Below, one piece after another: positions 14,505-21,504 of a stretch of DNA of 21,648 nt. Made by a program: the position numbers and the translations under genes. The notes beneath the pieces were generated by a model. It was not told the DNA's origin and ran no database searches. It saw only the letters and a program-made list of their open reading frames with translations. Source of the stretch: a virus; the IMG/VR virus record IMGVR_UViG_3300009104_000137, positions 1 to 21,648 of that record; one strand, written 5' to 3'. Within the stretch, counting starts at the first letter, position 1. Each line of letters begins with the position of its first letter.

Positions 14505-14746
14505 TGCTCTAGTTCTCTTAATACTAGAGTTTCATATTCTGTTTTCTTCATTTTCCTAAACTTGGTCTTGGCGCTCTTTGTCATTTCCAGCCAGCATATA
14601 TCTAATGCTTCAACTCTGGTATCATAACCGGTAGCCGCACCGCAAAACTGGCGCTCAATACCATCCTTTGCCTGCAATCTGGGGTTCCAGTCTGATTTTC
14701 CACACATAGAGCAGTGCCTTCCAATTTTTGTACAGCTTGACCCCAA
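14501..14746 (-). CDS. small Cys-rich zinc-finger-like protein, 81 aa
   Basis: TTG start with a strong SD: on the - strand AGGAGG lies 5 nt before TTG (SD at about 14750-14757). The N-terminal half has Cys5, Cys12-x-x-Cys15 and Cys35, suggesting a small zinc site; the C-terminal third is a basic helix (KSAKTKFRKMKKTEY). I do not recognise the family. The SD and start codon fall inside one arm of a 12-bp inverted repeat, so translation may be controlled by RNA folding. Confidence 0.55.
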   Translation of the reverse strand: MGSSCTKIGRHCSMCGKSDWNPRLQAKDGIERQFCGAATGYDTRVEALDICWLEMTKSAKTKFRKMKKTEYETLVLRELEQ

Positions 14747-14793
14747 AAACCCCTCCTAGAATCCGTTATATGGAACTAAAAGGGGTTTTTTGG
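14743..14793 (-). promoter_or_regulatory. inverted repeat sequestering the SD and TTG start of the 81-aa gene
   Basis: On the + strand CCAAAAACCCCT (14743-14754) is complementary to AGGGGTTTTTTGG (14781-14793) with one extra T, leaving a loop of about 26 nt. In the - strand RNA the 3' arm contains the GGAGGGG SD and the TTG start. When paired, ribosome access should be blocked. The stem is followed by T-runs on either strand, so a bidirectional terminator reading is also possible. Confidence 0.45.
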
Positions 14794-14809
14794 TACAAGT
14801 GTCCATCGT

Positions 14810-15118: not shown

Positions 15119-15187
15119 TCAAGTTTTGATAACCTCTTTGCCCAACCATCTAATACCAACCAAACGATCGCTTAAAGAAGTTATCAT
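15119..15187 (-). CDS. 22-codon micro-ORF inside a junction inverted repeat
   Basis: The ATG at 15187 overlaps the preceding stop (ATGA) and the frame closes at TGA 15121-15119. The peptide begins MITSLSDRLVGIRWLGKEV. Its two ends lie in the arms of the 12-nt inverted repeat 15128-15185. Overlap with the upstream stop is the only sign of translation; no good SD is seen. It may be a leader peptide or chance. Confidence 0.25.
   Translation of the reverse strand: MITSLSDRLVGIRWLGKEVIKT
15128..15185 (-). repeat. 12-nt inverted repeat in the junction before the 75-aa gene
   Basis: GATAACCTCTTT (15128-15139) faces AAAGAAGTTATC (15174-15185), 11 of 12 bases pairing and the twelfth a possible G-U in RNA. 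The loop is 34 nt and contains the palindrome CGATCG. It fills the gap between the nuclease-like gene and the 75-aa gene. No T-run follows, so attenuation, processing or protein binding is more likely than simple termination. Confidence 0.5.
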
Positions 15188-15510
15188 AATTCTTTTTTAA
15201 TTAATGATAGTAACATCATATACTGTTCCAGCGGTACTACCATGAATGGGTCTTCCCTGTCACCGCGTATTACTACACCGCTTTCCTGTTTCTCAGGCTT
15301 TACCCATATGGCAATACTCTTACGGCGCTTACACCCATAATATTTTCCTTCGATCTCAACGTCGCCCTTTTCATGCTGGGCTCCACCGCGATCACGGTTA
15401 AAGGCATCAAGGTTAAATTCCTTAGCCATGCGCACCACCTGCCGTTGCAGTTCTGCGCCCCGCTGACGGTTGCGCTTACCCCGCCGTATGTTCTTTGGAT
15501 TTTTTCGCAC
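15184..15510 (-). CDS. PDDEXK-like (Holliday-resolvase/VRR-type) nuclease candidate, 108 aa
   Basis: The very basic N terminus (MRKNPKNIRRGKRNRQRGAE) leads to a helix with Glu20 (GAELQRQVVRMAKEF), then R-D-R-G-G-A-Q-H-E-K-G-D50-V and Y-Y-G-C-K61-R-R-K. This is the order E...D...(E/D)-x-K seen in small archaeal Hjc-like and phage resolvase-like proteins. The acidic residue expected two before Lys61 is Gly59, so the active site may be altered or use another residue (Glu52 or Glu54). A late D-R-E-D-P-F-M-V-V-P-L-E-Q-Y segment also resembles that group. GTG start overlaps the primase-finger stop (TAGTG). Confidence 0.5.
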   Translation of the reverse strand: MRKNPKNIRRGKRNRQRGAELQRQVVRMAKEFNLDAFNRDRGGAQHEKGDVEIEGKYYGCKRRKSIAIWVKPEKQESGVVIRGDREDPFMVVPLEQYMMLLSLIKKEL

Positions 15511-19644: not shown

Positions 19645-19730
19645 TTCCTCAGTTTTATGCGGGGATATCTCGTGTGGAGCAAAGGAGGTTCACTCTTTTT
19701 AGGTTGTGAGCTAGGAGAGTACCCCCGCAT
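19641..19730 (-). CDS. 29-aa basic micro-ORF spanning a junction hairpin
   Basis: The ATG overlaps the previous stop (TAATG), GGAGG lies 7 nt upstream, and the TGA overlaps the next ATG (ATGA). The peptide starts MRGYSPSSQPKKSEPPLL and ends RYPRIKLRK: Pro/Lys/Arg/Ser-rich, likely disordered. The start codon lies in one arm of the ATGCGGGG/CCCCGCAT repeat. SD plus two overlaps favour translation; it may act as a leader peptide that couples translation through the hairpin. Confidence 0.4.
   Translation of the reverse strand: MRGYSPSSQPKKSEPPLLHTRYPRIKLRK
19657..19730 (-). repeat. 8-bp inverted repeat ATGCGGGG / CCCCGCAT with a 58-nt loop
   Basis: The arms equal the core of the hairpin at 18928-18967. 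On the - strand the loop has inner pairs (ACTCT/AGAGT) and contains ACCTCCTTT (19689-19681), the complement of a full SD and identical to the anti-SD tail typical of 16S rRNA. The upstream GGAGG of the micro-ORF could pair with it. It looks like a translational control element. Confidence 0.5.
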
Positions 19731-19894
19731 TATATTTCCTCCGGTACTATTTCGTACCCTTCACAATTAGTGTAATTTTCACAAAGTAATCCATATTCAG
19801 AAACATCACCCTTGCCATACTCTTGCCATATCAATGACTCTCCGCACTTCGGGCAATCCTTTTCTGATATATCTCCACCAATTATGTAATTCAT
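19730..19894 (-). CDS. 54-aa zinc-ribbon-like protein
   Basis: The ATG at 19894 overlaps the preceding TGA (ATGA) and has AGGAAA 5 nt upstream. The sequence contains D-C-P-K-C-G-E-S-L-I-W near residues 13-23 and L-L-C-E-N-Y-T-N-C-E-G-Y near 36-47, a compact four-Cys zinc ribbon. It ends PEEI with an SD for the next micro-ORF in its last codons. A nucleic-acid or protein adaptor is likely; no specific family is claimed. Confidence 0.6.
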   Translation of the reverse strand: MNYIIGGDISEKDCPKCGESLIWQEYGKGDVSEYGLLCENYTNCEGYEIVPEEI

Positions 19895-20031
19895 ATCTTT
19901 TCCTGTATCCTAAACTTTTTACCAAAGGTAGCCGTTGTTACCCAAACCTCATCATGATAATAGCACAGGTACATGCCAATAGGGTAAACAACAACAAAAC
20001 TGGCAAACAGTATGAGTAGTAAAATAATCAT
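19891..20031 (-). CDS. 46-aa single-pass membrane protein
   Basis: The start is ATG 20031, overlapping the TGA of the long upstream frame (ATGA), with GGGG about 6 nt upstream. Residues 2-24 are hydrophobic (IILLLILFASFVVVYPIGMYLCY) and the rest is a short soluble tail ending in basic residues. It should be an inner-membrane peptide. Its SD and start sit in the 3' arm of a 9-bp stem, so expression probably depends on translation of, or refolding within, the upstream structured region. Confidence 0.55.
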   Translation of the reverse strand: MIILLLILFASFVVVYPIGMYLCYYHDEVWVTTATFGKKFRIQEKI

Positions 20032-20540
20032 ATGAGCCCCGTGTTTTTCCTCAGGGTAGAGGTCGACATCTCGCCCAGTTCTCGGTTCTCTCCGAGGAGA
20101 GGCTCATATAAATTGGGGCTCGCAGTCAGGGCGGTATTACACCGCAGTCTGACTAATTGCTCTGCCCACACACCATGTTTACAGAACAATAGAGCCCCTT
20201 TATTATTGTGTCGAGAGGGGGATTCGAACCCGCCGATTTGCCTACTACCATCAATTTGATGGCTACTTGCCCTTATTGACTGCGCTGAGTGTCCACTGCC
20301 ATTTTTTAGGGTACTCATTACAGTATGCACCTGTCGAGATGGTGCAATACGCATTTCCATAGGTTTAGCAAGTCTCCCGACTATGTTGTTAAATTTTAGC
20401 GGGACACCATTAAATAGATTAAGCCCTGAACAAAATCTAAAATCCGACGTCCCACTATTGGCTCCCACCAAAGAGCCGATTTTAATTTGATTAATTCTTT
20501 CCATGTTAATACTACTACGCTCGAGCAAAATAGTTCCCAT
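20028..20540 (-). CDS. 170-codon ORF over a highly structured region (coding status uncertain)
   Basis: For coding: the ATG directly follows the stop of the upstream gene (TAAATG), the TGA overlaps the next ATG, no stop interrupts 170 codons, and purines dominate first codon positions in the 5' half. Against: no clear SD, no recognisable domain, odd Ser/Arg/Asn-rich composition, and the frame reads through tRNA-like sequence (the GGFESPSRH stretch is the translation of a T-arm). The region appears more GC-rich than its neighbours. It may be a real unknown protein, an RNA gene with a chance frame, or both. If real, an internal ATG (MERINQIKIG) is an alternative start. Confidence 0.3.
   Translation of the reverse strand: MGTILLERSSINMERINQIKIGSLVGANSGTSDFRFCSGLNLFNGVPLKFNNIVGRLAKPMEMRIAPSRQVHTVMSTLKNGSGHSAQSIRASSHQIDGSRQIGGFESPSRHNNKGALLFCKHGVWAEQLVRLRCNTALTASPNLYEPLLGENRELGEMSTSTLRKNTGLI
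20030..20109 (-). promoter_or_regulatory. 9-bp stem sequestering the start of the 46-aa membrane gene
   Basis: ATATGAGCC (20030-20038) pairs perfectly with GGCTCATAT (20101-20109). In the - strand RNA the 3' arm carries GGGG (SD) and the ATG. The 62-nt loop includes a CTCTC-CTCG-GAGAG hairpin and a CCTC/GAGG hairpin. GAGCCCC at 20034-20040 can instead pair with GGGGCTC at 20115-20121, giving a competing fold. Confidence 0.5.
20115..20198 (-). ncRNA. 84-nt stem-enclosed RNA-like element
   Basis: On the - strand GGGGCTC and GAGCCCC close an 84-nt unit by a perfect 7-bp stem followed by A, a tRNA-like length and acceptor. Inside is GTCAG-ACT-GCGGT-GTAAT-ACCGC-C-CTGAC, an almost unbroken two-part hairpin, and a GGGCAGAGC stretch recalling a D-arm 3' half. 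There is no T-loop, so it is not a canonical tRNA. The strong nested pairing supports a folded RNA. Confidence 0.35.
20209..20300 (-). pseudogene. tRNA 3'-half-like segment (class II, Leu/Ser-like), degenerate
   Basis: The - strand reads GGTAGTAGGCAAATCGGC followed by GGGTTCGAATCCCCC and then TCTCGACA: T-loop TTCGAAT with conserved G53/C61, a 7-nt acceptor 3' side and discriminator A. The part before the T-arm resembles the anticodon-stem/variable-arm portion of leucine tRNAs. One T-stem pair is C-C. The nearest 5' acceptor (GTGGACA near 20300) pairs at only 5 of 7 positions; GTCGGGA at 20381-20375 pairs at all 7 but makes a 173-nt unit. No U33 anticodon loop fits well. A tRNA relic, an attachment-site copy of a host tRNA end, or part of a larger RNA are possible. 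Confidence 0.4.
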
Positions 20541-21421: not shown

Positions 21422-21454
21422 TTATCTCTCCTTTAGACAGGGACAGTCAACCAT
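21422..21454 (-). CDS. 10-codon micro-ORF MVDCPCLKER
   Basis: The ATG lies 1 nt after the previous micro-ORF's stop; AAGGGG is about 9 nt upstream and the stop directly precedes the ATG of the 38-aa membrane peptide. It has a C-P-C motif. It lies across one arm of the inverted repeat 21436-21504. SD and spacing are suggestive, but at 10 codons it may be a leader or chance. Confidence 0.25.
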   Translation of the reverse strand: MVDCPCLKER

Positions 21455-21504
21455 TTTAAACAACCCCTTTACTGTTATTTAATTCCAGTTGCATTGTCCC
21501 TGTC
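21436..21504 (-). repeat. 10-bp inverted repeat GACAGGGACA / TGTCCCTGTC
   Basis: Perfect 10-bp arms separated by 49 nt, in the gap between the 40-aa Cys-pair gene and the 38-aa membrane gene. No T-run follows. The loop encodes the ends of two SD-led micro-ORFs. Architecture matches the other long-loop junction repeats of this module. Confidence 0.55.

Follow-up and report, generated by a model that had tools for sequence, protein, structure and literature searches.

Results

The locus and its row of folded modules

The window, a complete IMG/VR virus record of 21,648 bases (IMGVR_UViG_3300009104_000137), carries a block of small genes on its minus strand. Among these genes sits the flagged stretch, a stop-free frame of 170 codons that we call the slot. 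The slot starts at TAAATG, directly after the stop codon of the upstream gene, and ends at ATATGA, overlapping the next ATG. Thus, the preliminary description rightly saw this frame as coupled to both neighbours and as different in composition from its surroundings (GC of about 0.45 versus about 0.37 to 0.40 in the flanks). The coordinates of all features are collected in Table 1.

The 513 nt fold into a row of separate closed-stem modules (U0, U1, U2, C', and A) and not into one RNA. Their structure exceeds what dinucleotide shuffles give. The individual stems named in the preliminary description are all present on the minus strand, spread over U1, U2, C', and A. U2 contains TGCACC/GGTGCA, CCATCAAATTGATGG, and the T-arm-like hairpin GGGTTCGAATCCC, on which an acceptor-like stem is directly stacked; in this one sequence the resemblance to tRNA is in look only. 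C' contains GTCAG..GCGGT/ACCGC..CTGAC. The stem CTCTC-CTCG-GAGAG is possible in A; judged across the five contigs, however, CTCGG-AGAGAA-CCGAG within the closing stem of 10 to 13 bp is the favoured pairing.

In a fixed-window scan, z fell below -3 in 15% of the 13 windows at the locus versus 2.4% elsewhere. Such z-scores by themselves do not strongly single out the region, and the case is carried by comparative evidence. A consensus-fold scan of the early region placed the stem at 14.8 kb, module H, and module A at the top, with module B lower. The 14.8-kb stem, which leads that scan, is probably a bidirectional terminator.

Table 1. Features of the locus and of related contigs (window coordinates unless a contig is named; z against dinucleotide shuffles for the slot)
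Feature	Position	Strand	Description	z
Slot	20028..20540	-	stop-free frame, 170 codons, 513 nt	-5.4
U0	20460..20477	-	small hairpin GGCTCTTTGGTGGGAGCC; single sequence	-3.1
U1	20397..20457	-	closed hairpin TAGTGGGAC..GTCCCGCTA, inner TAGATT/AATCTA; single sequence	-4.5
U2	20209..20381	-	branched; 7-8 bp closing stem GTCGGGAG/CTCTCGAC; single sequence	-3.2
C'	20115..20198	-	three-way junction, closing stem GGGGCTC/GAGCCCC	-5.9
A	20028..20111	-	10-13 bp closing stem TATGAGCCTC/GRGGCTCATA, two hairpins	-3.5
46-aa membrane-protein-like gene	19891..20031	-	start codon at end of module A; purifying selection	
B	19657..19730	-	sister module; 11-bp closing stem from ATG, YACAAC-loop hairpin, single-stranded ACCTCCTT	
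H	15124..15189	-	closed module after RusA-like gene, conserved TTGGTTGG	
F	21436..21504	-	69-nt long imperfect hairpin GACAGGGACA..TGTCCCTGTC	-5.9
F in G2	L005 1373-1441		copy of F	
ParB-like gene in G2	L005 1626-2348		separates F from the MITIANW gene	
Module upstream of Cas4-like gene	L048 3500-3583		in short stop-free frame; closing stem GAAGGGGATAGT/GCTATCCCCTTC	
Module upstream of Cas4-like gene	L053 5853-5931		in short stop-free frame; closing stem ACGGGGCAGGTA/TACTTGCCCCGT	
Stem in YIDYCPTC gene	19345-19285	-	11-12 bp stem CCACCGTTAAA..TTTGACGGTGG	
Terminator-like hairpin	19000-18925	-	variable hairpin before it, around CCTTCCTTTCT	
Strong stem (14.8 kb)	14736-14799		A and T runs on flanks; probable bidirectional terminator	

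Relatives and exchange of modules

Relatives were found via the proteins of the gene block. Four close contigs bear the slot, namely G2 (IMGVR_UViG_3300025264_000107), G3 (3300009104_000128), G4 (3300030109_004096), and G6 (3300024518_001358), and more distant contigs were also found. A fifth close contig, G5 (3300025112_000227), ends before the slot; five-contig counts hence refer to the window, G2, G3, G4, and G6. A DNA search of named phage genomes gave no match, and GTDB contigs with the neighbouring protein included no relative.

All five slot-bearing contigs share this frame, which begins and ends alike in each, but its content is exchanged: U0, U1, U2, C', and A in the window, C' and A in G2, C and A in G4, C, D, and A in G3, and C, E, and A in G6. 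C and C' have the sequence of the closing stem in common while their interiors are unrelated. D and E were found once each, and the fold of E is weak (z of -1.8). Module C of G3, G4, and G6 encodes a hydrophobic segment.

The flagged stretch itself was confirmed, and the feature continues outside it, in modules B, F, and H. Short frames likewise tile B and F, linked by stop and start codons that overlap or are adjacent. F is identical at 67 of 69 positions between the window and G2, yet the two contigs have it on opposite sides of the MIEITCIECG-type gene: G2 before it, the window after it. It is possible that F is a mobile element; no target duplication was recognised at it. In G2, a ParB-like gene separates F from the MITIANW gene; the window has no such gene at that place.

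Covariance models of A and B gave no convincing copies outside the five contigs, and their weak matches were mostly the same sites on the opposite strand. Sequence patterns for F and C' recovered only the already known contig G2. A match of contig L014 to the pattern of unit A was discarded as a chance match in unrelated GC-rich DNA.

Selection on the RNA fold

The aligned sequences give good support for selection on a folded RNA in A, B, and H and moderate support in C and C'. In module A, all 21 pairs are retained in the five contigs. Variation reaches just 2 of its 42 paired columns, yielding G.U each time, versus 19 of the 43 unpaired ones (p=2.7e-5). Since these pairs hardly vary, the evidence for A is conservation and not covariation. 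The closing stem of module B holds standard pairs in 55 of 55 cells, with two-sided changes at pairs 5, 8, and 10. On the MAFFT alignment, six pairs of B show two-sided changes, and its covariation score was reached by none of 500 shuffles. Module H keeps 8 of 8 closing pairs in the five contigs, four of them with two-sided changes, within a consensus of 26 pairs. C' is retained in G2, where a G-C pair is replaced by A-U, wobbles occur, and the register is shifted, and the three sequences of module C agree with its fold, if weakly. Over the tested helices, there were 10 G.U wobble cells and no A.C, which argues that the folded strand is the sense RNA.

The octamer ACCTCCTT of B is an exact anti-Shine-Dalgarno (anti-SD) motif, kept in 5/5 contigs beside a variable, covarying hairpin. 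Its frame relative to the ATG of B differs between contigs. Furthermore, ACCUCCUU of B could pair with the SD behind the module, clearly better than shuffled loops in G6 only; an anti-SD pseudoknot is thus suggestive for G6.

Two other structures lie nearby. The stem within the conserved YIDYCPTC gene is kept in 5/5 contigs, and coding conservation by itself may explain it. The variable hairpin before the terminator-like hairpin reads TCCCA..TGGGA in the window and GACCG..CGGTC in relatives.

An open frame without selection on its peptide

The slot frame has no internal stop in 5/5 contigs; the remaining two forward frames contain 5 to 20 stops. The chance of an open frame is 0.0037 for U0-U2, 0.22 for C', 0.16 for C, 0.10 for D, 0.35 for E, and 0.19 for A. 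The combined chance is about 1e-6, a value that is only a guide because the modules were picked after the frame was seen.

Purifying selection on the slot peptide, the mark of a protein-coding gene, was not found. The dN/dS values were 0.47 to 1.05 for A, 0.57 to 0.85 for C, 1.25 for C', and 0.74 to 0.96 for B, single ratios that are rough for such short modules, and substitutions were spread over codon positions. In contrast, the neighbour genes had dN/dS values mostly of 0.04 to 0.36 (0.73 for one pair) and a third-position bias. The dS of A was 0.26 between the window and G4 (1.4 to saturation in neighbours) and 0.19 between the window and G2 (0.15 to 0.90 in neighbours). AlphaFold predicted disorder for the 170-aa product (mean pLDDT of 38.5 from an alignment of five rows), and no Pfam or PHROG family matched it.

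The slot is apparently kept for its fold and its freedom from stops, with a peptide that appears neutral in these comparisons. Aligning homologous contigs, a check put forward in the preliminary description, thus gave stems that are kept or compensated and a peptide that drifts. The dual coding suggested there holds in a weak sense only: the frame must remain open, but its peptide does not seem to be under selection.

Analogous modules in distant phages

Analogous modules also occur in three phages that are more distant, again in stop-free frames that adjoin or overlap the genes on both sides. L048/L057 and L053 share a homologous module upstream of a gene for a Cas4-like nuclease (about 50% identical as protein). 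In a structural alignment made by hand, 12 of 12 pairs of this module are kept, eight with two-sided changes. L047 has two consecutive modules, with z of -6.0 and -4.0. The linking frames span 39, 38, and 64 codons, each singly open by chance at 0.04 to 0.32; that of L048 encodes a membrane-helix-like peptide. This recurrence is the best evidence that folded modules within linking frames form a pattern rather than a peculiarity of a single locus. Among the matches listed, still more distant contigs with the Cas4-like family have their genes mostly end to end there.

Comparison with known RNA families

Rfam gave nothing over the window at the gathering score and nothing meaningful over the region at E<=5; no known class was recovered, including GOLLD, ROOL, and tmRNA. 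With the stems kept or compensated, the suggestion that an open frame here contains a structured RNA not described before has stood up. ARAGORN detected no tRNA in the window, and there are no tRNA genes in the window or in relatives L002-L013, contigs that may be fragments. The notion of a large ornate RNA of the GOLLD/ROOL type was not borne out: no covariance model matched, no tRNA gene lies nearby, and the locus consists of independent modules of about 20 to 170 nt that differ between relatives.

Several other identities were rejected. U2 was recognised as tRNA or tmRNA by neither ARAGORN nor Rfam, where only a 13-nt T-arm fragment scored (E=0.16, 9.7 bits versus a cut-off of 47). An attP-like copy of a host tRNA 3' end was dismissed, the exact 23-mer being absent from GTDB contigs (exact matches only). 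MITE (transposon-like) and attC (integron-like) elements were set aside because each module has its own, covarying terminal stem, and inspection by eye showed neither target duplications nor core sites in common.

Discussion

Sequence comparison establishes the folds, the covariation in sister modules, the swapping of modules, and the open frame without peptide selection. On this basis, we tentatively propose, with somewhat less than even confidence, that the slot is a set of independent folded mRNA modules in a translatable, apparently peptide-neutral frame and that these act in cis as translation-gated coupling elements. Ribosomes crossing the slot would melt the modules and make the start of the next gene accessible. 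When upstream translation is absent, the modules would fold and hide that start. A stop-free frame would allow coupling to continue and avoid a long untranslated gap.

The 3' strand of the closing stem in module A carries the SD-like GRGG together with the AUG at which the next frame starts, and in the predicted fold the stem spans both in 5/5 contigs, so that it would sequester them. The start behind A has a predicted mean unpaired probability of 0.30 to 0.37, toward the low end of the values for the tested starts and below most of them. In other words, the downstream start is predicted to be masked within the upstream frame, and that frame, ending at ATATGA in 5/5 contigs, reaches the masked start. 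The anti-SD motif of B could likewise pair with the SD behind it. If A masks the next start and B binds an SD, the modules would be cis-acting, translation-gated elements. A downstream start that is masked by the upstream frame and opened by translation is a described mechanism of coupling (PMC6728339). Therefore, although the pairing of B is suggestive in G6 only, we favour translation-gated control in cis. Against coupling, C', C, D, E, U1, and U2 inside the slot mask no known start. Furthermore, in G6 the start behind A is that of an 11-codon frame rather than directly that of the membrane-protein gene, so that control of this gene is not what is conserved.

Four other explanations can be considered, in falling order of probability. 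The modules may be elements of mRNA processing or stability, cut by a double-strand-specific RNase or protecting segments of the transcript. F, U1, H, and the modules of L047/L048/L053 are indeed long irregular hairpins at gene borders, but A and C' are branched and some of their unpaired positions are conserved, and simple processing sites need neither a stop-free frame nor the invariant ACCTCCTT and YACAAC of B; we regard this explanation as unlikely, if the strongest of the four. It is more doubtful that the modules are trans-acting RNAs, released or imitating host RNAs as mimics or decoys, for instance to counter a defence, with swapping as an arms race. Such a role would fit the rapid turnover of modules in one slot, the exchange of interiors under a retained closing stem, the T-arm-like hairpin of U2 on its acceptor-like stem, and the exact anti-SD motif in B. 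However, it leaves the stop-free frames unexplained, and U2 fails the tests for tRNA and tmRNA.

We give little credence to selfish or mobile folded cassettes that are tolerated because the frame stays open. F has been moved or copied, and D, E, and U0-U2 are presence/absence modules of frame-preserving length, but A, B, and H stay put with folds kept by selection; moreover, the terminal stems differ between modules, unlike those of one transposon family, and no target duplication was recognised. Least probable of all, and very much so, is a plain small protein gene whose RNA structure is incidental. The continuous frame, the ends shared by five contigs, and the hydrophobic segment in C would agree with it, whereas dN/dS of 0.47 to 1.25 with no third-position bias, the keeping of stems, the predicted disorder, and the failure to match Pfam or PHROG argue against it.

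Translation-gated coupling in cis thus remains our preferred reading, and the slot of these uncultured phages suggests a translation-linked RNA element of a kind not described before. More speculatively, and with rather low probability, the modules may be RNA cassettes of a new class, interchangeable and in part mobile. These would stay translatable in the stop-free frames that link genes but work as RNA, perhaps after release and in trans on host functions, and their interiors would be swapped while the closing stem is retained. What looks like a small 'hypothetical protein' of a phage, intact frame included, can be an RNA in disguise, where the fold and the absence of stops are selected and not the peptide. 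Such loci are likely annotated as genes and overlooked by searches restricted to intergenic DNA. It can now be tested whether phages control their operons with exchangeable RNA modules that ribosomes have to traverse.

Among known systems, the early mRNA of T7 carries RNase III processing sites, which are irregular hairpins between phage genes; F, U1, H, and the modules of L047, L048, and L053 resemble them in general shape only. Unlike these sites, our modules lie in stop-free frames, several are branched, and some have conserved single-stranded motifs. GOLLD and ROOL are ornate phage RNAs, akin to the slot as structured phage RNAs of unknown function (PMC12286853). Whereas they are single large RNAs, often near tRNA islands, the slot consists of short independent modules in a reading frame with no tRNA and no Rfam match. 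The manA and wcaG motifs are likewise structured mRNA elements, found in marine phages (PMC2864571). They precede metabolic genes, while the slot's neighbours are small uncharacterised genes, and here too Rfam gave no match. Coupling by new initiation that depends on upstream translation shares with the slot the hidden downstream start and the overlapping stop and start codons (PMC6728339). In contrast to that system, the upstream frame of the slot seemingly has no peptide function and is built of exchangeable RNA modules.
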